From NCBI GenBank assembly GCA_031285565.1, contig JAITVY010000035.1, forward strand, positions 202,318 to 266,317: DNA of 64,000 bases, given 5' to 3'. A model generated the notes under the pieces. The model saw nothing but the letters and a program-made list of their open reading frames with translations, made no database searches and was not told where the DNA came from. Positions within the stretch are counted from its first letter, which is position 1. Each line of letters begins with the position of its first letter. Below are positions 33,533 through 46,749 of the stretch, in pieces. This DNA comes from Tannerella sp. (lineage in GTDB: Bacteria > Bacteroidota > Bacteroidia > Bacteroidales > Tannerellaceae). Both the position numbers and the translations under genes were made by a program.

Positions 33533-33570
33533 TTACGCAAAAACACAGCGCATCACCCCCTGTATCTTTG
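33533..33570 (+). promoter_or_regulatory. Operator-like motif TTACGCAAAAACACAGCGC plus -7 box TATCTTTG of the Ro60 gene
   Basis: 19-bp motif 33533-33551; ACGCAAA ends 21 nt before TATCTTTG (33563-33570). Confidence 0.6.
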
Positions 33571-33620: not shown

Positions 33621-35135
33621 ATGAAATTCAATTCGATGGCTAAAAGAAAAAATAAGGTGAGAAATTACGTAAGTGCCGAAGCATATCGACTCTCTCCTGA
33701 ATGGCAGCTATATGTTGCAGCTGTAACTTCTTCGTTGAGCGATAAGTTTTATGAAAAAGCACAGGACCGTGTTGAAGCATTACGCAAATTAATAAAACAA
33801 TGCGATCCGGTATTTGTAGCTCAACTGGCAGTATACACCCGCACGAAAATGAATCTGCGCTCCATACCTTTAGTATTGGCAGTTGAACTGGCAAAAGTAC
33901 ATTGCGGAGACGACCTTGTAAAAAGGATGACTTCACAGGTAATCCGGCGTGCCGATGAAATAACGGAGTTATTGGCTTACTATCAATTGGCAAACGAACG
34001 CGAAAGTATAAAAAAACTAAACCGCTTATCGAAACAGCTCCAAGTGGGGTTACAGGTTGCGTTCAACCAGTTCGATGAATACCAGTTCGCCAAATACAAC
34101 CGGGATACGGAAATAAAACTCCGGGATGCATTGTTTCTGGTTCACCCAAAAGCAAAAGATGAAACACAACAAGTGATATTCAATAAAATTGTGAATAATA
34201 CACTTGAAACTCCATATACTTGGGAAACTGAACTTTCTGCACTCGGAAAGGCACACTATGCTGATGATAACGAACGTTCAATTGCATTCCGCATGAAATG
34301 GGAAGAGCTGGTAGATAGCCAAAAACTCGGTTATATGGCGCTTATCCGTAATCTGCGCAATATACTGGAAGCCCGTGTTTCACAACAATGCATCGCAAAG
34401 GGATGTAATACACTGGCTAATCCTGAAGCAGTCCGCCGGTCAAAACAATTGCCATTCCGTTTTTTGGCAGCTTACCGTGAAATATCAAAAGTAAAATCAG
34501 CCTACGCAGGTCGTATGTTAGATGCATTGGAAGAAGCAGTTACTGTCTCAGCCAGAAGTATAACCGGTTTCGATGAGAATACAAAAGTATTGATTGCTTG
34601 TGATGTTTCAGGATCAATGCAACGTCCCCTATCGCCCAAAAGTAAAATATTATGTTACGACATTGGATTGATGATGGCGATGATTTTAAAATCACGTTGC
34701 AAAAATGCTATAACAGGTATATTTGGGGATAAATGGAAAGTAATAAACGTTCCGAGCAAAAGTATCCTGTCGAACGTAGACACATTATATCATTACGCAA
34801 ATGAAGTGGGTTATTCAACCAATGGCTATTTGGTTATTGAAGATCTTATCCGTCGAAAAGAACTGGTAGATAAAATCATGTTTTTTACCGACTGCCAGCT
34901 ATGGAATAGCCGGAATGACAAAAAGATAGTTGACTTGTGGAATACGTATAAAAAAATATCACCGGACAGCAAGTTATATCTTTTCGATCTGGCCGGATAT
35001 GGTAACACTCCGCTGGATACCAACCGTGAAGATGTGTATCTGATTGCAGGCTGGTCTGATAAAATATTCGACATTATAGCAGCTATCGATAACGGTAGCA
35101 ATGCACTGGGTGAAATAAAGAAAACAGTGCTCTAA
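33621..35135 (+). CDS. rsr: Ro60/TROVE-domain RNA-binding protein with vWA MIDAS (bacterial Rsr-like)
   Basis: HEAT-like TROVE helices, then VLIACDVSGSMQRPLSPKSKI (MIDAS DxSxS) and IMFFTDCQLWN. Confidence 0.92.
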   Translation: MKFNSMAKRKNKVRNYVSAEAYRLSPEWQLYVAAVTSSLSDKFYEKAQDRVEALRKLIKQCDPVFVAQLAVYTRTKMNLRSIPLVLAVELAKVHCGDDLVKRMTSQVIRRADEITELLAYYQLANERESIKKLNRLSKQLQVGLQVAFNQFDEYQFAKYNRDTEIKLRDALFLVHPKAKDETQQVIFNKIVNNTLETPYTWETELSALGKAHYADDNERSIAFRMKWEELVDSQKLGYMALIRNLRNILEARVSQQCIAKGCNTLANPEAVRRSKQLPFRFLAAYREISKVKSAYAGRMLDALEEAVTVSARSITGFDENTKVLIACDVSGSMQRPLSPKSKILCYDIGLMMAMILKSRCKNAITGIFGDKWKVINVPSKSILSNVDTLYHYANEVGYSTNGYLVIEDLIRRKELVDKIMFFTDCQLWNSRNDKKIVDLWNTYKKISPDSKLYLFDLAGYGNTPLDTNREDVYLIAGWSDKIFDIIAAIDNGSNALGEIKKTVL

Positions 35136-35194
35136 AAGATTGCATCCCTACCACTTTACTTTGCACCATCAAACAACAGTTCTTTGAAATAAAC

Positions 35195-35346
35195 AAAAAC
35201 AAGTGTCGTAAAGGAAAGATACTTCGCACTTAGGAAGCACTGTCGCAGGTTCGAATCCTGCTACTCCTACAGTTATCAACTAATACAACGGGAGTATCAC
35301 GGTGGGGCAGGAAGAAAAGACTTTCCTTGATTATTACCTTGTTTTT
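35195..35346 (+). ncRNA. Y RNA-like A (permuted tRNA-like module)
   Basis: 9-bp closing stem AAAAACAAG (35195-35203)/CTTGTTTTT (35338-35346); GTA/TAC; AAGGAAAG/CTTTCCTT (35211-35218/35321-35328); T-arm GCAGG-TTCGAAT-CCTGC (35245-35261); acceptor TACTCCT (35262-35268)/GGGAGTA (35290-35296). Confidence 0.85.
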
Positions 35347-35353
35347 AAAATAT

Positions 35354-35614
35354 AAACAAGTGCCGTAGAAAAGAGTTACTTCGCACTCTTAATGCCCGGG
35401 TCGTGGGTTCGAGTCCCACCACTTCCACCAGAAACAAAAAGAGAAAGGTTAAAGTAGAAGACTAAAGAAATAATTTACCTTCATCAATTAGTCTGATATT
35501 GCTGAATGAGGATAAAGTCTTTCACTCTCAATTTTCAATTCTCAATTACTGAAGGGAAGTGTAGCTCAGAGGATAGAGCAGGAATATAGTCTCTTTTCGC
35601 CTGTTGCCTTGTTT
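35354..35614 (+). ncRNA. Y RNA-like B (circularly permuted, near-complete tRNA-like domain with encoded ACCA)
   Basis: AAACAAG/CTTGTTT closing stem; GAAAAGAG/CTCTTTTC; T-arm GTGGG-TTCGAGT-CCCAC (35403-35419); acceptor CACTTCC (35420-35426) + ACCA (35427-35430) pairs with GGAAGTG (35555-35561); TA + D-arm GCTC-AGAGGATA-GAGC (35562-35579). Confidence 0.87.
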
Positions 35615-35621
35615 GCTATAA

Positions 35622-35740
35622 AAACCACATCTGTCGTAAAGGAGAAATACTTCGATTGCTAAAAGCCAAATAAATATGGGTTCAACACCCGGCAAAGTCC
35701 GGGCATGACAAAACATTTCTTTCTGGTCGTTGCCTGTAAT
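35622..35740 (+). ncRNA. Y RNA-like C (minimal T-arm-only module)
   Basis: TGTC-GTA (35632-35638), GGAGAAAT/ATTTCTTT stem, GGTCGT-TGC (35725-35733), TACTTCG, T-hairpin TGGG-TTCAACA-CCCG; closely resembles unit D. Confidence 0.7.
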
Positions 35741-36009: not shown

Positions 36010-37023
36010 ATGTTTGGAATCAATCACATTAAATTCGACTCAATGACCCATGTATTCTATTACAAAAACGGGACAATAAAGAAAGAAGGACGTGGTTTAT
36101 CATTCTTCTATTTTAAACCGAACAGTTCGATCGTAGCCATACCAATGGGTAGTAATGATTTACCTTTTATATTCATGGAATCGACTAACGACTATCAGAC
36201 AGTAACCATACAAGGGCAGATAAGTTACAAAATAATAAACCCGGATATGCTGGCTGATACCCTTGACTTCACGGTAACTGATGCCGGAATATACAAAAGA
36301 AATGATATTGAAAAGTTAAACCAGCGGATAATCAATGAAGCCCAGACTTCGACATCCTCCTTTATACATAACATAGGATTAAAAGAAGCGATACGCTCAG
36401 CGAAAGAAATAGAAAACCGGATTCTCGAAGGATTAAAAACTGCCGAAGCCGTCAGTATGCTCGGAATAGAAATTCTCGGGGCAAATGTGCTGGGCGTACA
36501 GGCAACACCGGAGATGTCAAAAGCATTGGAAACCGAAACCCGTGAACGCCTGCAACAGGAAGCAGACCAGGCAATCTATGAAAGACGCAATTTTGCAGTA
36601 GAACAGGAACGTAAAATCAAAGAATCGGAATTAAATACTGAAATCGCAATAGAAGAAAAACAAAAACAGATCGACGAAAAACGAATGGAGTCCGAAGTTC
36701 AACGGATGGAAAACAACCGCAAACTTCGTGAAATGAATATCGAAGCAGATATTGCTGTCGAAAATCAACGGAAAATATTTATAGAGCAAAAAACCGAAAA
36801 CGATAAGAAAGAAGCCGAAGTACAGGGATTCCAGATAGAAGCAATGCTGAAGCCTTATAAAGAAATGGACTGGAGATCACTGACAGCATTAGCCGGACAT
36901 TCCGATGCCCGCAACAACATTGCACTGGCTTTTCGCGAACTGGCACAGAATGCAGGAAAAATAGGCAACCTTAATATCACACCTGACCTGCTCGATTCAA
37001 TCCTACATAATTCGGAACAATAA
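36010..37023 (+). CDS. SPFH/Band-7 (slipin/stomatin-like) protein
   Basis: SPFH-like N-terminus, long E/K/R/Q coiled-coil ERKIKESELNTEIAIEEKQKQIDEKRMESEVQ, C-terminal LAGHSDARNNIALAFRELAQNAGKIGNLNITPDLL. Confidence 0.75.
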   Translation: MFGINHIKFDSMTHVFYYKNGTIKKEGRGLSFFYFKPNSSIVAIPMGSNDLPFIFMESTNDYQTVTIQGQISYKIINPDMLADTLDFTVTDAGIYKRNDIEKLNQRIINEAQTSTSSFIHNIGLKEAIRSAKEIENRILEGLKTAEAVSMLGIEILGANVLGVQATPEMSKALETETRERLQQEADQAIYERRNFAVEQERKIKESELNTEIAIEEKQKQIDEKRMESEVQRMENNRKLREMNIEADIAVENQRKIFIEQKTENDKKEAEVQGFQIEAMLKPYKEMDWRSLTALAGHSDARNNIALAFRELAQNAGKIGNLNITPDLLDSILHNSEQ

Positions 37024-37216
37024 GTGTGAGCCCATATACACAAAAGGGAAACTGAATGTGAGTAAAAAGGGATTCCGTTATGTCGAACACCAGAGAGACT
37101 TCTCATAATCCTAATTTTATTAGTAACCATGCGATTCCTCTTTTCAATCGGAATGACGATTGGTGGTTCATTTTCAATTTTCAATTATTCTAACAACTAC
37201 CAACTACTTAATTAAA

Positions 37217-38137
37217 ATGAACATCGAATATGCAATCATAGTAAAAAATAAAACAAGGCTTCAGAGTTTGATCGAACGTTTCAATACAAAATCTCAGGCT
37301 AAGTTTTACATTGAAAGACAGGGAGGAGATTTTCATGACTACGAAGAAGAAAATAACATTTTCCATGAATCCCTACATTCCCTGCAATCACAGTTATCCG
37401 GAATAATAAAGCACAAAATTGTGGATCGCACATATCTCCCATCCTACCTATTTTCAGAGAAAAACCTGATCGTTGTCATTGGACAGGATGGCTTAGTAGC
37501 AAACACCGCGAAATACTCACATGGCAGACCTATCGTGGCTGTAAACCCTGATAAGCAACGATACGATGGTATCCTATTGCCTTTCAACACTGGAAATTTT
37601 ACCAAAGGAGTCGAAAATGTCCTGTCCGGCAACTATCAATCCAGAAAAGTCAGCTTTGCGGAAGCATGTTTAAACGATGGGCAAAGACTTCTGGCGTTCA
37701 ACGATTTATTCATAGGTGCATCATCACATATATCAGCCAGGTACAAACTGTCTTTCAATAATATTATGGAAGAACAATCTTCCAGCGGAATAATCGTATC
37801 CACAAAAGCAGGCTCTACCGGATGGTTAAGTTCTGTCTTTAACATGGCTTATGGTGTTACCCGGTTATTCGAAAAAAACATCACGCTCAAACAGCCAAAG
37901 TTAAAAGACGATCAACTGCTCTTCGCTGTTCGTGAACCTTTCAAAAGTCTCCGCACGCAAACAGATATATCCGTAGGACTGATAAACAACCAAAAACACC
38001 TTCGCATTGAATCATTAATGCCTGCAGGAGGAGTAATATTTAGTGACGGGATAGAATCTGACTTTCTGCAATTCAACAGCGGAACCATCGCAACCATCCG
38101 TATAGCCAACGAAACCGCCAATCTGGTGAATATGTAA
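37217..38137 (+). CDS. NAD kinase-like protein
   Basis: VVIGQDGLVANTAKY (GxDG-like), NDLFIGASSHISARYKL, SSGIIVSTKAGSTGWLSS; ATG at 37217 preferred. Confidence 0.75.
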   Translation: MNIEYAIIVKNKTRLQSLIERFNTKSQAKFYIERQGGDFHDYEEENNIFHESLHSLQSQLSGIIKHKIVDRTYLPSYLFSEKNLIVVIGQDGLVANTAKYSHGRPIVAVNPDKQRYDGILLPFNTGNFTKGVENVLSGNYQSRKVSFAEACLNDGQRLLAFNDLFIGASSHISARYKLSFNNIMEEQSSSGIIVSTKAGSTGWLSSVFNMAYGVTRLFEKNITLKQPKLKDDQLLFAVREPFKSLRTQTDISVGLINNQKHLRIESLMPAGGVIFSDGIESDFLQFNSGTIATIRIANETANLVNM

Positions 38138-38178
38138 TTCAAAATAACTACATTCGCATAAATTATATCAATTTGCGG

Positions 38179-40677
38179 ATGAACACCAATTATACAAACC
38201 AGGATCGGGGCGATCAGAAAAGCTACCGGCAATACCTGGAAGCAATGGATGCTATCTCGATAGAGAAAGTTGCTTCAGCCAGTGTCTTCTTCCAACCTGA
38301 TAAAAACAATTTATTGGTAGATGTAGGCATGGCATCCGGAACAAGTACAGCCATTCTATCGCAGCTTTTTCCCGGAATGCAAATAATGGGTATTGATATA
38401 AACCCAAAGATGATACAAATAGCGCAAGAGACGTACCATCAACCAAACCTGGCTTTTCGCGAAGATGACGGAGAAAAACTATTGACTTTTACTCCGGATA
38501 CCGTCAGCGGATTTTTCAATTGTTCGGCAATCCATCATATCACATCGTACAATGGCTATGATAGTAACAGGGCATTCAATACACTACGCCGGCAAGTAGA
38601 ACTTCTGAAAGATAAAGGCATTCTCGTTGTACGTGATTTTGTAAAACCGGAAAATAAAGATGTGATCCTGGAATTATCTACAATCGACAAACCGGACCGC
38701 CCGAACGATGCTGACCTCTTTGTTCAATTTTCAAAAACTGCACGCTCATTAGCCTCCCCTACTGAACAAGGGTTTCCCTTTGAAGAAATAAAGTCTGTAA
38801 AAAAAAATACCCGCTGGTTCCGTGCATTTTATACGGACATTACCGAATTTATCCGTCGCAAAGATTACTTTGCAAACTGGAATGTCGAACTACAGGAAGA
38901 ATACGGCTACTTTACCCAAAATGAATTTGAAGAAACCTTTCGTGAATTAGGTTTACGCATCATCCTTTCCAGCCCTATCTACAACCAGTGGATTATCAAT
39001 AACAGATACAAAGGGCAATTTACCATATACGACCTGGACGGAAAAGAAACAGGCTTCCCTCCTACCAACTACCTGATTGCCGGTGAAAAAGTTCCCCTGG
39101 GTAAGCAAATACATCTTATAAGATATTTACCTGTAAAAGAGAATTCTTTCCTGCACTATTCTTCATATCAGAACACAGATACAAAGAAAATATATGATGT
39201 AGTGGAACGTCCGAACAATGTAATCGACATTATTCCATATTATAATAGTGAAAATGGATACATGATACTGGCAAAGCATGGGTATCCACGCCCATTGGCA
39301 AATGTAAAAACAGATAGTCCTACTTTGGATAATAAACATTACAGCGGGTATATACCTGAAGGAATAACCATTGGCGAAACCGAAAGCCTGGAGGCGACTT
39401 TAGAAAAACGTTTTGGTATAAGTAAAGACCTTTATTCCGGCATTACGCCATTACTCAACTATTATACTTCTCCCGGTGGAATTAATGAAAAAGTATCCTC
39501 GGTATCTATCAAGTTAAACAACCCTTCGGCAATAGTAAACAAACATCTGACACATGGATTTTCCGGTTTTAAAGAATCAGGATATATCCACGAATATAAT
39601 GCCGCACAGTTGCTGAATACAGCACAAACAGGAGCTCTGGTCGAAGCACGGCTTGAATTGAACATTTATAATCTCTTTTTCCGGCACAACATCACCCTAC
39701 CCAAATGGCTGGGAGAAAAGATAAAAATAAAATTCGAACAGTTTATCAAACCTATACAGTTCACAGAATTGTTATCTTTCCGTTCAAAAGACTATGAAAA
39801 AAGCGAGAAACAAGCTGGTTTTCTGACCATCCGCAGAGCCTGTTTTTCGGAAATGGGAATAGAAGATAGCAGCACCACGAGCGAATATGTATATCCTTCA
39901 ACAGTAAGCTCAAATACACTGGTAACACTACCTGTCTTCAGGAAAGACGGGCAGGTCTTTGTCGGATTGGAAATACGGAGCCTACCCGTTCCACAGATAC
40001 ATTCCGGCAATAGCACGATCATAACAACACCGGCAAAACGTCTACCTCACGAAATTTGTAACATACATGATCTGGAACAATATATTTCGAAAATGAAAAT
40101 AGGCAAAGGAAAAGTAGAACGATACTACAAATTAGGTGAAAAATATTTCCCAAGTATCGGAATCACTACCGAACAGGTATATCCGTATGCCGTTTGCCTC
40201 GATCGTGCCGATAAGAGTCTCAAATGGGTTAGTCTGGCTGAATTATACCAACAAATAAACACCATTGAAGATGCCCATCTTTTGATATGCATAAGCAGAT
40301 TGATACATGCTACCGGATTTTTGCCTCAGCAACATGTAAGGGATCTCAGTTTTGAAAACTTTATCGATTTTATAAACGACAATTTCTATATAACTGACAA
40401 GAATATTACAAGGGAAATGTTTGTTGAAAAAGACCTCGGAATAACAGGCGATGACGGAGACGAATTTCTTCTGGCGATACAAGACGAATTCGGGATAAAT
40501 TTCTGCGACGAAACAGGTTCTTTAAATAAAGCCTTCGGTCTGAAAGAGAATGAATATCTGTTTCATAGCGAAGGCACTATGCTTTGGATACTAGGAGCCT
40601 TTTTCCCTGAAGACAACATCAAACCCCTGACCGTAGGACAACTCTATGATGTCATAGTAAACCTGTATCATAAGTAA
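38179..40677 (+). CDS. Fusion: class I SAM-dependent methyltransferase domain + NUDIX-like region(s)
   Basis: LLVDVGMASGTSTAILSQLFPGMQIMGIDINPKMI; YSGYIPEGITIGETESLEATLEKRFGISKD resembles a Nudix box; ATG at 38179 chosen over upstream TTG. Confidence 0.7.
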   Translation: MNTNYTNQDRGDQKSYRQYLEAMDAISIEKVASASVFFQPDKNNLLVDVGMASGTSTAILSQLFPGMQIMGIDINPKMIQIAQETYHQPNLAFREDDGEKLLTFTPDTVSGFFNCSAIHHITSYNGYDSNRAFNTLRRQVELLKDKGILVVRDFVKPENKDVILELSTIDKPDRPNDADLFVQFSKTARSLASPTEQGFPFEEIKSVKKNTRWFRAFYTDITEFIRRKDYFANWNVELQEEYGYFTQNEFEETFRELGLRIILSSPIYNQWIINNRYKGQFTIYDLDGKETGFPPTNYLIAGEKVPLGKQIHLIRYLPVKENSFLHYSSYQNTDTKKIYDVVERPNNVIDIIPYYNSENGYMILAKHGYPRPLANVKTDSPTLDNKHYSGYIPEGITIGETESLEATLEKRFGISKDLYSGITPLLNYYTSPGGINEKVSSVSIKLNNPSAIVNKHLTHGFSGFKESGYIHEYNAAQLLNTAQTGALVEARLELNIYNLFFRHNITLPKWLGEKIKIKFEQFIKPIQFTELLSFRSKDYEKSEKQAGFLTIRRACFSEMGIEDSSTTSEYVYPSTVSSNTLVTLPVFRKDGQVFVGLEIRSLPVPQIHSGNSTIITTPAKRLPHEICNIHDLEQYISKMKIGKGKVERYYKLGEKYFPSIGITTEQVYPYAVCLDRADKSLKWVSLAELYQQINTIEDAHLLICISRLIHATGFLPQQHVRDLSFENFIDFINDNFYITDKNITREMFVEKDLGITGDDGDEFLLAIQDEFGINFCDETGSLNKAFGLKENEYLFHSEGTMLWILGAFFPEDNIKPLTVGQLYDVIVNLYHK

Positions 40678-40724
40678 CTACCCCTCATATCCAACTTTCT
40701 CTACCCAATTTTAATTCTTAACTT

Positions 40725-41576
40725 TTAATTTTTAATTACTTCAAACGCCCCTATATTCTCCTGCGTCTTACTCCGGTCAAAAACAGCAAACACAATATTC
40801 TTGAATGCACCTGCATATTTACCGTCCTTTGTAAGAAAATACGCAAAATAACGGGCTACATCTTTCGGATCATTCCGGAAAACGCCACAACCCCAGGCTC
40901 CCAGAATCAGCTTATCTACCCCCTGTAACAAAAAGACAGACAATATCTTGTCAAGACGCTCCATCATAACCTTTTCCGATTGTTCAAGTTCATCCTGGCG
41001 TTTATGTTGCATCATTGCACCGATATTTACAGCAGGACTGGTTAAAATATCCATTTCATAAGGTTGCTCCAACAGGATATCGTTATCATCTTTAAAAAAT
41101 ACAACGTCAGGACTATAAATCATATAATCTGAATACAAATAAGTATGCTGCGAACGATTATACTCATACATCTCCGTAAAATACCTCATCTGTGTTGGAT
41201 ACAAAGTCGATGCCCTTGCAAGGCTTTCTTCCTGCGCTTGCGATCCACCCAGAAAACCGCCACCCGGATTTTTTGCTGAAGCAAAATTAAGGCAACCCAC
41301 TCTCCCACCAGTCCCAACTAAATCTGTAGCAGCTTCCATCGAAGTGCAGTTTTTCACTTCGATAATAGTCTCATATTTTTTCTCCTGAAGTAACTTTTCA
41401 ACATCTGATGCTGTATGCTGGAAATAATCAGGTGTATAAAGAACAGTAGCTTCTACCGATTTATCAATCCTGTCCTTCAACTGGATTTCTTTACCTGCAA
41501 CACAATAATACCCTCTCTCAATGATATCTAAAGTCTCCTGGGCATTCTTTGCCCGTATATTTCTATTATTTGTCAT
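40725..41576 (-). CDS. TIGR02452-family microbial PARG-like poly(ADP-ribose) glycohydrolase
   Basis: CLNFASAKNPGGGFLGGSQAQEESLARASTLY (GGG...QEE signature); ILGAWGCGVFRNDP. Confidence 0.9.
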   Translation of the reverse strand: MTNNRNIRAKNAQETLDIIERGYYCVAGKEIQLKDRIDKSVEATVLYTPDYFQHTASDVEKLLQEKKYETIIEVKNCTSMEAATDLVGTGGRVGCLNFASAKNPGGGFLGGSQAQEESLARASTLYPTQMRYFTEMYEYNRSQHTYLYSDYMIYSPDVVFFKDDNDILLEQPYEMDILTSPAVNIGAMMQHKRQDELEQSEKVMMERLDKILSVFLLQGVDKLILGAWGCGVFRNDPKDVARYFAYFLTKDGKYAGAFKNIVFAVFDRSKTQENIGAFEVIKN

Positions 41577-41636
41577 TTCTTTTCTATTGTCGGCACTCCT
41601 TTTGCCATTTTACTAACTTTCTTTAATTGTCCACTG

Positions 41637-42209
41637 TCAATTATCAATTATCCCGTCCAGTCTATCCCTCACCTCCATTAAAGCAAAACCCAATAAGTTT
41701 GACCCTTTCCAAAGCCGGGGATTCTCTGCGTGTTCATGGCTCTGAGCCATCCCAATACCCCAGATACGATCCATTGGACTCGCCTCTACCAGCACCCGGT
41801 CTTTCGTATCCAACAAAAAGGCTTTCAAATCCGGATGCTGGGAGAACTTATGGTAATTGCCTTCACAAACAATATCAAAACAATTTTCTCCCCATACTTT
41901 CGGATCAAAATTCCGTACTTTACGACCCAGCTTTTTTGCTTCAGCAGGAGATTTGGCTACTAATATCTTCTCCAGCATTTCTCTATCACTAAAAAGTACA
42001 GCCTTCTGTGCCATCATCCAATGTTCGGCAGTTGCATAACGTACATGATCGACCTCGAAAGCGCTTTGCCACCATTGGCTAAAGCACGATTTGGAAACCG
42101 AACCATCTTTCGATGGCGTATGCCCCCAAAAAAAGAGATATTTGACATTCTCCTTTTTCTCCTCCCTGCTTAACAACCATCCTAAATTATATGTGTTATA
42201 TTTCATCAT
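41637..42209 (-). CDS. NADAR-family protein (YbiA/DUF1768-like)
   Basis: CFSQWWQSAFEVDHVRYATAEHWMMAQKAVLF; KFSQHPDLKAFLLDT; LVEASPMDRIWGIGM. Confidence 0.92.
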   Translation of the reverse strand: MMKYNTYNLGWLLSREEKKENVKYLFFWGHTPSKDGSVSKSCFSQWWQSAFEVDHVRYATAEHWMMAQKAVLFSDREMLEKILVAKSPAEAKKLGRKVRNFDPKVWGENCFDIVCEGNYHKFSQHPDLKAFLLDTKDRVLVEASPMDRIWGIGMAQSHEHAENPRLWKGSNLLGFALMEVRDRLDGIIDN

Positions 42210-42332: not shown

Positions 42333-43034
42333 TTACAACTCAAAATAAAACCCCGTCTTACTCAACTCCTCATACCGGCTTTTATCAAAACTATACAATT
42401 TAGGAGCCCGGTTACGCGCGCCCCTTTGCACCTCTTTCAAATCAATAAGCAAATCATAACCTAATATTTTCTTCCGGAAATTCCGGTCGTCAAGTTCCGT
42501 TTGTAATACAGTCTCATACAAATGATGCAAATCAGGCATCGTAAACTTCTCCGGCAACAATTCAAACCCTATCGGCTGATATTTTATCTTTCCTTTTAAC
42601 CTGTCTTTTGCCAATTCCAGAATCCGGGCATGATCGAACGCCAGTTCAGGAACATCAGAGATTGAAAACCATTGGATATTAGTTGCATCTGTTCCGGCGT
42701 GCGCATGATAATCCGACAACTTCACTAATGCATAATACGCAATGCTGATTACCCGGTAACGGGGATCACGGTCAACATCTGAGAATGTATATAACTGTTC
42801 CATATAAATATTCTCAAGCCCTGTCTCCTGCACCAGTTTCCGCCTGGCACAGCTCTCCGCATCTTCATCCATATCAATAAAACCACCCGGCAATGCCCAT
42901 TTACCAAGATAGGGTTCGATACCCCTCTCTATCAATAACACCTTCAGTTCACCTTCATCAAAACCGAATATAACACAGTCAGTCGTAACAGCCGGTCTTG
43001 GATATTCATACGTATATTTTCCTTGCAATTCCAT
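42333..43034 (-). CDS. NUDIX-like/winged-helix regulator, NrtR-type
   Basis: N-terminal Nudix GKWALPGGFIDMDEDAESCARRKLVQETGLE plus C-terminal domain NFRKKILGYDLL...GARNRAPKLYSFDKSRY. Confidence 0.85.
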   Translation of the reverse strand: MELQGKYTYEYPRPAVTTDCVIFGFDEGELKVLLIERGIEPYLGKWALPGGFIDMDEDAESCARRKLVQETGLENIYMEQLYTFSDVDRDPRYRVISIAYYALVKLSDYHAHAGTDATNIQWFSISDVPELAFDHARILELAKDRLKGKIKYQPIGFELLPEKFTMPDLHHLYETVLQTELDDRNFRKKILGYDLLIDLKEVQRGARNRAPKLYSFDKSRYEELSKTGFYFEL

Positions 43035-43298: not shown

Positions 43299-43335
43299 CT
43301 GCGCAAAAACAATGCGCAGACACATATTTACTTTG
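43299..43335 (+). promoter_or_regulatory. Operator-like motif CTGCGCAAAAACAATGCGC plus TACTTTG box upstream of Y RNA-like D and the nucleotidyltransferases
   Basis: Motif 43299-43317; GCGCAAA ends 21 nt before TACTTTG (43329-43335). Confidence 0.6.
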
Positions 43336-43372
43336 CATCATCAAACAAAATATCTTTATATGAAGCAATAAT

Positions 43373-43482
43373 ACAAGTGTCGTAAGAAAGAAATACTTCG
43401 ATAGCAAAGCCAAATAAATATGGGTTCGACTCCCAGCTAAGTCCGGGTGGGACAAAGCCTTTCTTTCTGATTGTTACCTTGT
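43373..43482 (+). ncRNA. Y RNA-like D (minimal T-arm-only module) in the 5' leader of the nucleotidyltransferase genes
   Basis: ACAAG (43373-43377)/CTTGT (43478-43482); TGTC; GTA/TAC; AGAAAGAAA (43385-43393)/TTTCTTTCT (43460-43468) 9 bp; T-hairpin TGGG-TTCGACT-CCCA; GTCC-GGGTG-GGAC hairpin. Confidence 0.85.
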
Positions 43483-43547
43483 AAAATTCTTCATAATAAC
43501 TTAAACAAATAAAGCACAAACATCACTCAAAACAAAAACTGACAGGT

Positions 43548-44297
43548 ATGAAAACAATAATAGAAAGAAAACTAACTGAAATAGAACAAACACATGAAAT
43601 AAAAATACTTTATTCATGCGAATCCGGCAGCCGGGCATGGGGTTTTCCATCTCCCGACAGCGATTACGATGTTCGTTTTATATATTTGTATACACTGGAA
43701 GATTACCTGACAATACAACCCAAAAAAGATCATCTGTCTTTCCCGATAAATGACGAACTCGATATATCTGGCTGGGACATATCGAAAGTACTCCAATTGA
43801 TAACAAAATCAAACACAACACCTTTCGAATGGCTGCAATCACCGGTAATATACAGGGAAAATCAGGCTCATAAAGAACAACTATGGCAACTATCCCAAAA
43901 CTATTTTTGTCCGCGAAGCAACATACACCATTATTTAGGCGTTGCACGCGGAGCAATGGAAACAATGCAAGACGAATACATAAAAATAAAAAAACTGTTT
44001 TATGTACTTCGACCGTTGCTTGCAGCCCTGTGGTGTGTAGAACGTGCCTCCATAGCACCGATGAATATACTTCCGTTAATGGATTTATTATCCGGCGATC
44101 TGCAGGAAAAAATAGTATCTTTGATAAATCTGAAAGCGACTGCTACCGAAGGCTACCTGATAAAAATAGATACGGATTTAAAACAATGGATAAACCAAAC
44201 GTTCGATGATTGCTTAAAAGCATCACAACAAATGGGAAGAAAAACTTTTGAGATAGGAAAAGCCGATCAATTATTTAGAGAAATAATACAAGCATAA
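43548..44297 (+). CDS. RlaP/MNT-type nucleotidyltransferase (PF10127-like)
   Basis: YSCESGSRAWGFPSPDSDYDVRFIYLY polymerase-beta-type GSxxWG...DSDxDV motif. Confidence 0.85.
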   Translation: MKTIIERKLTEIEQTHEIKILYSCESGSRAWGFPSPDSDYDVRFIYLYTLEDYLTIQPKKDHLSFPINDELDISGWDISKVLQLITKSNTTPFEWLQSPVIYRENQAHKEQLWQLSQNYFCPRSNIHHYLGVARGAMETMQDEYIKIKKLFYVLRPLLAALWCVERASIAPMNILPLMDLLSGDLQEKIVSLINLKATATEGYLIKIDTDLKQWINQTFDDCLKASQQMGRKTFEIGKADQLFREIIQA

Positions 44298-45361
44298 TGA
44301 CGATACAGGAAATAAAAGAAAAAAGCCTGCTGCTTTTCGAATGCATAAGTGGTAGCAAAGCATATGGGTTAGATACGCCACAATCAGATACAGATCTGAA
44401 AGGAGTCTTCTATCTGCCCAAAGAACAATTCTACGGACTGGACTATATACCACAGGTAAGTAATGAAACCAACGATGAGGTATATTATGAATTAGGGCGT
44501 TTTGTCGAACTACTATGCAAAAACAACCCTAACATACTCGAAGTACTCGCAACACCCGAAGAATGTGTCTTATATAAACACCCCTTAATGGATATGCTTC
44601 ATATAGAAATGTTCTTATCCAAACTATGCAAAGACACTTTTGCCGGGTATGCTCTAACACAGATACGAAAAGCCCGGGGCTACAAAAAGAAAGTGGTAAA
44701 CCCGATGGATAAAGAACGTAAAACGATTCTCGACTTCTGCTATATAATGGACAACAACCTGTCTGTTCCCGTAAAAGAGTGGCTTGATAAAAAAGGCTAT
44801 ACACAGGATTTATGCGGATTAAGCTCCATATCACATGCCAAAGGAATGTATGCCATATTTTATGATGCGGACAACAAATACGATTATCATGGTATAGCTG
44901 CAAAAGAATCTGCAAACGAAGTTTCACTATCATCCATACCAAAAGGAGAAAAACCTATTGGCTATCTATTCTGGAATATGGAAGCATACTCACTTTATTG
45001 CAAAGAATACAAGGAGTACTGGGACTGGGTAGCAGAACGTAACGATGCCCGCTATCAAACCAATATGGAACATGGCAAAAATTACGATTCGAAAAATATG
45101 ATGCACACCATACGCCTCTTGCAGGTTGCCGAAGAAATACTGCGTGACGGCAAACTCAATGTTAAGCGCCCAAACCGGGAACAACTGCTTTCCATAAAAT
45201 CGGGACATATGGATTACAATGACTTATTGGCTATAGCCGACCAACTGATGGAAAAAATAAAAGTATATTGTTTAACATCATCATTACCCGATGCTCCCGA
45301 TAAAAAACAGGCAGAAAGAGTTCTGGTGAAAATAAGGGAAGCATTATATGAATCAAAATAA
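44297..45361 (+). CDS. Second RlaP/MNT-type nucleotidyltransferase (PF10127-like)
   Basis: FECISGSKAYGLDTPQSDTDLKGVF; ATG overlaps the upstream stop (TAATG). Confidence 0.85.
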   Translation: MTIQEIKEKSLLLFECISGSKAYGLDTPQSDTDLKGVFYLPKEQFYGLDYIPQVSNETNDEVYYELGRFVELLCKNNPNILEVLATPEECVLYKHPLMDMLHIEMFLSKLCKDTFAGYALTQIRKARGYKKKVVNPMDKERKTILDFCYIMDNNLSVPVKEWLDKKGYTQDLCGLSSISHAKGMYAIFYDADNKYDYHGIAAKESANEVSLSSIPKGEKPIGYLFWNMEAYSLYCKEYKEYWDWVAERNDARYQTNMEHGKNYDSKNMMHTIRLLQVAEEILRDGKLNVKRPNREQLLSIKSGHMDYNDLLAIADQLMEKIKVYCLTSSLPDAPDKKQAERVLVKIREALYESK

Positions 45362-45375
45362 TAAAATAATTCCCG

Positions 45376-45412
45376 CTACGCAAAAACGTTGCGCTTCGCC
45401 ATAGTTACTTTG
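45376..45412 (+). promoter_or_regulatory. Operator-like motif CTACGCAAAAACGTTGCGC plus TACTTTG box of the rtcB gene
   Basis: Motif 45376-45394; ACGCAAA (45378-45384) ends 21 nt before TACTTTG (45406-45412). Confidence 0.6.
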
Positions 45413-45441: not shown

Positions 45442-46749
45442 ATGATACAATTAAAAGGAAAATACAATCAGGATTGCAAAATATTCATTGACCAGGTCGA
45501 AGCCGAAGCTATCGAATTAGTCAAAAATATTCTTAATCAGGAAATATCCAAAGGAGTACCTGTACGTATTATGCCGGATACACATGTAGGAAAAGGAATC
45601 GTTATTGGGTTTACCATGCCAATGACCAAAATGGTTAATCCAAACTATATCGGAGTTGATATCGGCTGTTCCGTAACAAGCTACCGCTTAAACAAACGTT
45701 TCGATGCTGCCGAACTGCCGCGAATCGATAAAACAATCAGAAAAGCTGTTCCTATGGGTCATGATATCCGGAAAAGCCGTGATTTTAATCATTGGTGGGT
45801 AGACGAATATCTGCAAGCTGCTACACAAAATGTAAACAACTTCCAAAACGAATGGAATATACGCTTTTCCGATAATAAACAAACCATAACAATCGATAGA
45901 GAATATATATCCGGATTATGTCAAAAAGTCGGGATAGAAGAAAGAATGTTTTATAACTCGGTTGGTTCGCTGGGAGGAGGAAACCATTTCATTGAGATTG
46001 GAGAATCGGCAAACGACGGTTCGCATTACCTGACTATACATTCAGGTTCACGAAACTTCGGATTAAAAGTGTGCAATTATCATGCGAAAAAGATGATACC
46101 GGCAAAAAAATTGCCTCAGGAATATTACGATAAGTTTGAGGATATTACCAAAAATACAATCCCCACTACCGATATACCGTCCAGGTTAGCACAACTTAAC
46201 GAAGCATATAAAGTCGGGAAAAAAGAATATATGCTCGAAGACGATGATATGTACAACTACCTGGTAGATATGATAATTGCACAAACTTACGCCGAATTCA
46301 ATCACCGCGCTATGGCACACGCCATATTTGTTGGATTACGCGATGTTGAAGCTACGGATATGGTTCATTCAATGCATAACTTTATCGACACACGCGACTG
46401 GATCATCCGTAAGGGAGCTATCCGCGCCTATAAAAACGAACGAATGATTATCCCGTTCAATATGCGCGACGGACTGTTAATCTGTGAGGGTAAAAGCAAT
46501 GTCGACTGGAACTGTTCGGCTCCGCATGGCGCCGGACGAATACTCGCAAGAAACCAGGCAATGAAAACATTGGATATGACTGAATTTGAAAACGAAATGA
46601 AAGGAATATATTCAACATCCGTTTGCCAGTCAACACTCGATGAGTCACCAATGGCTTATAAAGATAAAGATACAATCATCGAAGCCATCAAAGATACAGC
46701 CACCATCCTCGATACAATAAAACCGGTATTAAATATCAAAGCAAACTGA
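45442..46749 (+). CDS. rtcB: RtcB-family RNA-splicing ligase
   Basis: MPDTHVGKGIVIGFTM; NYIGVDIGCSV; GSLGGGNHFIEIG; HSGSRNFG; SAPHGAGRILAR. Confidence 0.97.
   Translation: MIQLKGKYNQDCKIFIDQVEAEAIELVKNILNQEISKGVPVRIMPDTHVGKGIVIGFTMPMTKMVNPNYIGVDIGCSVTSYRLNKRFDAAELPRIDKTIRKAVPMGHDIRKSRDFNHWWVDEYLQAATQNVNNFQNEWNIRFSDNKQTITIDREYISGLCQKVGIEERMFYNSVGSLGGGNHFIEIGESANDGSHYLTIHSGSRNFGLKVCNYHAKKMIPAKKLPQEYYDKFEDITKNTIPTTDIPSRLAQLNEAYKVGKKEYMLEDDDMYNYLVDMIIAQTYAEFNHRAMAHAIFVGLRDVEATDMVHSMHNFIDTRDWIIRKGAIRAYKNERMIIPFNMRDGLLICEGKSNVDWNCSAPHGAGRILARNQAMKTLDMTEFENEMKGIYSTSVCQSTLDESPMAYKDKDTIIEAIKDTATILDTIKPVLNIKAN

Follow-up and report, generated by a model that had tools for sequence, protein, structure and literature searches.

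The 64,000-nt stretch of Tannerella sp. DNA analyzed here (the window) raises the question of why an element resembling a Y RNA lies in the leader of two tandem nucleotidyltransferase genes. The initial annotation had offered two options for this element, which we call D, namely that it is processed from the mRNA or that it acts as a Ro60-responsive leader controlling translation. The answer that we consider probable is that D is a Y RNA module in the rlaP1-rlaP2 leader, controlled by an upstream operator, co-transcribed with the two genes, and active in trans as a ligand of Ro60.

The coordinates of the island are given in Table 1. Both genes behind D match the Pfam family RlaP, described as "RNA repair pathway DNA polymerase beta family", in keeping with their earlier description as tandem nucleotidyltransferase genes. 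The gene of the RNA ligase RtcB starts about 80 nt past the RlaP1-RlaP2 pair, while Ro60, accompanied by three further Y RNAs, is encoded 8.2 kb upstream of D on the same strand and behind the same operator. The stretch leading from Ro60 to D (36010-42209) encodes Band 7, NAD-kinase-like, and methyltransferase-domain proteins, a microbial PARG (TIGR02452), and another small gene.

Table 1. Features of the Ro60 and RNA repair island (positions are those of the window)
Feature	Position	Strand	Remarks
Operator and promoter of Ro60	33533..33570	+	
Ro60 (TROVE and Ro60 vWA domains)	33621..35135	+	PF05731, 7e-30; PF25045, 2e-7
Y RNA A	35199..35342	+	81.6 bits
Y RNA B	35356..35612	+	73.1 bits
Y RNA C	35627..35739	+	Paralogue of D; decayed basal stem; 31.9 bits
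NrtR-type Nudix and winged-helix regulator gene	42333..43034	-	PF21906 (NrtR_WHD), 7e-24; divergent from D-RlaP
Palindromic operator CTGCGCAAAAACAATGCGCAG	43299..43319	+	Distal half-site about where a Bacteroidota promoter would have its -33 box
TACTTTG promoter box	43329..43335	+	Bacteroidota TAnnTTTG type
Y RNA D	43373..43482	+	Covariance model from other genomes; 12/12 stem pairs in register
D basal stem, 5 bp	43373-43377/43478-43482		ACAAG/CTTGT
D conserved 5′ strand	43379-43400		GTCGTA-N9-TACTTCG
T-arm-like hairpin of the D effector module	43421..43435	+	TGGG-TTCGACT-CCCA
D second hairpin	43441..43453	+	GTCC-GGGTG-GGAC
D conserved 3′ strand	43461-43477		
RlaP1, RNA-repair-associated Pol beta nucleotidyltransferase	43548..44297	+	PF10127, 1.1e-72; 65 nt after D
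RlaP2	44297..45361	+	PF10127, 1.1e-23; start overlaps RlaP1 stop
Second operator copy and TACTTTG promoter	45376..45412	+	In front of RtcB
RtcB RNA ligase	45442..46749	+	PF01139, 5e-58; same regulon

Is D a genuine Y RNA? A species-level genome collection scanned with the Ro60 of the window yielded 29 loci, nearly all from Bacteroidota, and most of these carry close to Ro60, on the same strand, a 22-nt signature (GYCGTA-N9-TACTTCG), each copy of which is paired with a 3′ strand at fixed geometry: a 5-bp basal stem, a 7-bp upper stem, and a conserved internal strand of 10 nt. Six occurrences in the 5.0-Mb genome, compared to one in the reversed control, place the signature of D beyond chance. 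Among 68 modules from other genomes, two pairs of the conserved core covary (C-G/T-A and G-C/A-T); selection of these modules had favored just one state of each core pair, and stem percentages are biased high because modules were partly picked by stem pairing, a bias from which the core pairs are free. Our covariance model, R1, rests on an alignment of 43 Y RNAs, all from other Bacteroidota genomes and none from this one. The 17 model pairs are 95.5% formed in that alignment, 16 of them with compensatory changes. Counts of double-sided changes are 236 for the alignment, 66 for shuffles, and no more than 53 for slid controls; the covariation score, 0.897, compares with 0.28 after shuffling and a maximum of 0.24 after sliding.

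In the window, the model has exactly four hits, A to D; two more Y RNAs about 144 kb away bring the genome total to six. D is recovered at 43369-43486 with 72.7 bits (E = 5.9e-18) by a model devoid of any sequence from its own genome, bearing out the earlier label "Y RNA-like". The boundaries first proposed for D agree with those of the module as derived independently, and the promoter box, both hairpins, and the RlaP1 start codon are all located where the initial annotation had put them. D has the 5-bp basal stem, the 7-bp upper stem, and the fixed 10-nt internal strand, retains 16 of the 17 covarying pairs of the Ro60-binding module along with every invariant base, and shows T-A and A-T for the two core pairs that covary. 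This makes D a Bacteroidota-type Y RNA whose module is intact. Its effector module includes the T-loop hairpin carried by 57 of 74 related Y RNAs but neither the D-arm nor the acceptor that are present in 31 of the 74 and in B. The second hairpin of D may be a reduced acceptor and not a D-arm, a reading suggested by its position, which equals that of the closed acceptor hairpin of another Y RNA (L113:10858-10973).

D is undetectable by single-sequence folding alone, its plain folding energy being ordinary (z = -1.25); with the other z-score, -0.87, not significant either, folding of this kind was set aside as evidence. A tRNA or Rfam identity was also discarded, as scans of the window with ARAGORN and with Rfam at the gathering score were empty. 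Searched against the Rfam YrlA model (RF02553), D gave no match up to an E value of 10 and Y RNA A reached just 16.7 bits, the gathering score being 69; five related loci had no match to RF02553 at that score. No nucleotide match to D was found in phage records.

A DNA search of the whole genome with D returned just D itself and C, the two being 83% identical over 108 nt. C is the parent or a sister of D, and D is the better preserved of the two. This kinship was not part of the initial annotation, nor were the operator and the four-site regulon described below.

Y RNA B deserves a separate remark, as its effector module resembles a circularly permuted tRNA, a feature of 31 of the 74 Y RNAs overall. 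The T-arm and 3′ acceptor come first, the 5′ acceptor and D-arm last, and the Ro60 stem stands where a tRNA has its anticodon arm. When the parts were put back into tRNA order and completed with an anticodon arm and ACCA end of our own, ARAGORN classified 27 of the 31 as tRNAs, as opposed to 3 of the 74 in unaltered form. In B, a perfect 7-bp acceptor is followed by an encoded ACCA, and the linker measures 128 nt.

How D might be expressed is indicated by a palindromic operator (CGCAAAAANNNNGC) that abuts the D-RlaP1 promoter. The sequence CGCAAAAACNNNGCGC at 43302 recurs in exact copies at 33536, before Ro60, and at 45379, before RtcB; at all three window sites, an operator of the consensus TDCGCAA-N5-TTGCGHA immediately precedes the promoter box, and the D, RtcB, and Y-array promoters further have in common CATCATCAAA after the TACTTTG box. 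The combination of operator and TTTG box occurs four times in the 5.0-Mb genome (Ro60, D-RlaP1, RtcB, and a second Y RNA array) and never in the reversed control. Relatives have kept the operator in front of Ro60, RtcB, and Y RNA arrays; before Ro60 it is present in most of them, usually 58-92 nt upstream of the ATG. A distance of 71 nt separates D from its operator; in most of the other operator-first loci, operator and Y RNA are 70-78 nt apart. Downstream of the promoter box, no TTTG is seen by eye between 43336 and 43548, no second promoter is recognizable between D and the RlaP1 ATG, and a terminator scan of the D leader returned nothing on the plus strand. The assignment of D to the rlaP1 leader, between TACTTTG and ATG, holds up accordingly, with the leader presumed to be transcribed. 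Since D lies inside this leader and the operator is restricted to Ro60, Y RNA, and repair genes, RNA D and the repair enzymes are probably made together.

The leaders show a further element, a boxA-like TC[TA]TTGA between the promoter and the first Y RNA. It is present in 11 of 14 operator-driven Y leaders (L046, L048, L055, L065, L068, and L110-L113 among them, as well as the window at about 35175-35190) and in none of the 22 leaders whose operator directly drives an ORF, which suggests rRNA-style antitermination of the Y arrays. A 16S gene, sought for comparison, is absent from this assembly, and GATCTTTGA occurs in the 16S leader of one of two relatives. The D leader has merely a degenerate TATCTTTATATGA at this place.

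As for the protein acting on the operator, the most likely candidate repressor is the NrtR-type protein encoded divergently from D-RlaP, on correlative grounds. A search of 20 genomes placed its closest relatives (82, 71, and 56%) in three genomes that have both the operator and Y RNAs, and full-length NrtR matches reach 51% at most in the genomes selected for the lack of a Y RNA signature. Exceptions are two genomes with Y RNAs, G893 (48%) and G318; the latter counts against this part of our proposal, as it possesses operator and Y RNAs but an NrtR match of merely 38%. NrtR-type genes also neighbor RtcB/Y RNA arrays in two other loci (L048 and L111). Characterized NrtR proteins respond to ADP-ribose, NAD, or pentoses (PMC4666351), and the NAD/ADP-ribose genes of the island would fit an NrtR-type signal.

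In other genomes, Y RNAs are found directly before RtcB (e.g., L046, L047, and L115) and directly before Ro60 (L049, L050, L055, L058, L065, L068, and L070), and the 65 Y RNAs counted in Ro60 loci share, without exception, the strand of Ro60. One locus, L121, reads Ro60, six Y RNAs, RlaP1, RlaP2, with 33 nt between the last Y RNA and the ATG, a placement before RlaP1 that is independent of D. Together with the present locus, it accounts for both Y RNA-containing RlaP1 leaders among 41 loci with enough leader; the association is recurrent, not obligatory. In four genomes (L134, L136, L138, and L141), the operator lies 53-54 nt before the RlaP1 ATG and the leader is without a Y RNA, so that D has the behavior of an insert, a module placed between a repair-gene promoter and the ORF behind it. 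Neither Y RNA nor operator is present in the leader of the closest RlaP relative (58%, L009/L031), whose genome has Y RNAs elsewhere. Tandem Y RNA arrays of relatives keep to one strand, with spacers of mostly 12-40 nt.

Some of these loci hold further features. An RNA_ligase-domain protein (PF09414; L049:13418-14404) starts 47 nt after a Y RNA, making it another repair gene behind a Y RNA. Just past the Ro60 stop of L045-L048 and L112 is a compact element (e.g., L047:7331-7407) that consists of GTCGTAGTATAG(G/A)GATACTTCG or similar plus a short cargo and is unlike other Y RNAs. IMG/VR viral contigs (L172, L178, L191-L194, L204, and L206) carry Ro60 relatives and Y RNAs of the type described here, in several cases with a Y RNA 13-68 nt before the Ro60 match.

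We propose that the palindrome adjoining the promoter is occupied by a repressor, for which the divergent NrtR-type regulator is the most likely candidate, and that this repressor would silence D-rlaP1-rlaP2, Ro60, RtcB, and the second Y RNA array together. Derepression would give rise to a single transcript that has D at the 5′ end and the RlaP1-RlaP2 ORFs behind it; D may be cut out of this mRNA, or Ro60 may bind it in place. In either state, free or nascent, D would occupy Ro60 in trans and present its T-arm, the module by which it may mimic part of a tRNA. Given the tandem arrays with their mostly short spacers, processing would be the simplest route to single Y RNAs; of the two options raised at the outset, processing agrees with these arrays and with a precedent in Salmonella, while the translational switch found no support. 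Against D as a co-transcribed trans ligand speak the lack of a D-arm and acceptor, which full Y RNAs like B possess, the missing boxA-like element and the missing U-run that trails most Y RNAs, as well as the closest RlaP relative with its plain leader. A 7-bp pairing of the D flanks (TATGAAG/CTTCATA) was considered as a processing stem and dropped (shuffle p = 0.11).

A cis-acting leader, in which Ro60 binding to D would alter translation, stability, or termination of rlaP1-rlaP2 and tie their output to free Ro60, is in our judgment unlikely. It would suit a single Y RNA in a leader, with a Ro60 module better preserved than in paralogue C, and the Y RNAs directly before Ro60 in several genomes and viral contigs, where autoregulation is plausible. 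However, the element is not conserved in the leader across relatives, being confined to the two RlaP1 leaders above, D and its leader fold no better than shuffles, and a conserved element coupling D to the start codon is not seen. Spacers to the ATG that range from 23 to about 170 nt between cases, Y RNAs in the leaders of three unrelated genes, and the operator-bearing RlaP1 leaders without a Y RNA all disfavor a dedicated cis element; it is possible that Ro60 bound to unprocessed leaders has some effect. By eye, UUACCU in D could pair with AGGUA at the start codon; as this pairing has no counterpart in L121, it was dropped. The broader idea of a leader Y RNA as a Ro60-responsive gate before RlaP, RtcB, and Ro60, across Bacteroidota and their viruses, strikes us as distinctly doubtful; if true, free Ro60, displaced by damaged RNA, would tune its own repair regulon.

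Alternatively, Y array cassettes that have the same operator and promoter and no repair gene behind them (L110 and L113) could mean that D forms a small RNA gene of its own, terminator included, leaving rlaP1 to a separate, unrecognized promoter. This we hold to be highly improbable, as it is at odds with the lack of TTTG and of a plus-strand terminator in the leader, with the absence of a U-run after D, and with the operator directly before rlaP1 elsewhere, an arrangement by which the operator probably belongs to the rlaP promoter. Barely credible, finally, is D as a recent nonfunctional duplicate of C left in the leader: its similarity to C and the lack of D in RlaP leaders of close relatives would be compatible with such an origin, but the nearly complete set of module pairs and invariant bases is in D, and the decayed copy is C.

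That Y RNAs occur beside Ro60 and RtcB is already known. A Y RNA in an RlaP leader, the four-site operator, and the NrtR candidate were not found in the literature searched, which did not include the principal papers on bacterial Y RNAs or the 2016 survey of RNA repair; the same search returned no description of NrtR control of Ro60, Y RNA, or RNA repair. Here, one genome links Ro60, Y RNAs, RtcB, and two RlaP nucleotidyltransferases through a single four-site operator, and a Y RNA physically within a repair mRNA leader makes for a testable regulon, with NAD-derived molecules as the candidate inducer class suggested by NrtR. It also offers a model for a whole phylum, the Y RNAs of which went unrecognized here by Rfam models.

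Among known systems, NrtR-family Nudix repressors such as BtAraR (PMC4666351) combine the Nudix and NrtR winged-helix domains also present in the gene beside D. Their known regulons concern NAD or pentose metabolism, whereas the candidate regulon here comprises Ro60, Y RNA, and RNA repair. The Y RNA of Deinococcus radiodurans, in the Rsr/Y RNA/PNPase complex RYPER (reviewed in PMC4726728), illustrates a Y RNA as ligand, gate, and tether of bacterial Ro60; we liken it to D by description, not sequence, and PNPase tethering is without support here. The tRNA-like module of known Y RNAs recruits partners such as PNPase (PMC8394870). The experimentally known parallel is Salmonella, where Y RNAs are part of the rsr-yrlBA-rtcBA RNA repair operon (PMC7790460, PMC9879122). 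As is proposed for D, YrlA and YrlB lie within an RNA-repair transcription unit; like D, they have a 5′/3′ paired Ro60-binding stem, and the T-arm of their tRNA-like module has its counterpart in the T-arm-like hairpin of D (PMC7790460, PMC9879122, PMC8394870). In contrast, D sits in the 5′ leader of RlaP genes, behind a Bacteroidota-type promoter with a palindromic operator instead of sigma54/RtcR control, and differs from YrlA/YrlB in having no D-arm or acceptor and no match to the Rfam YrlA model. The Salmonella arrangement suggests that D, too, is most likely co-transcribed with, and processed from, a repair mRNA.
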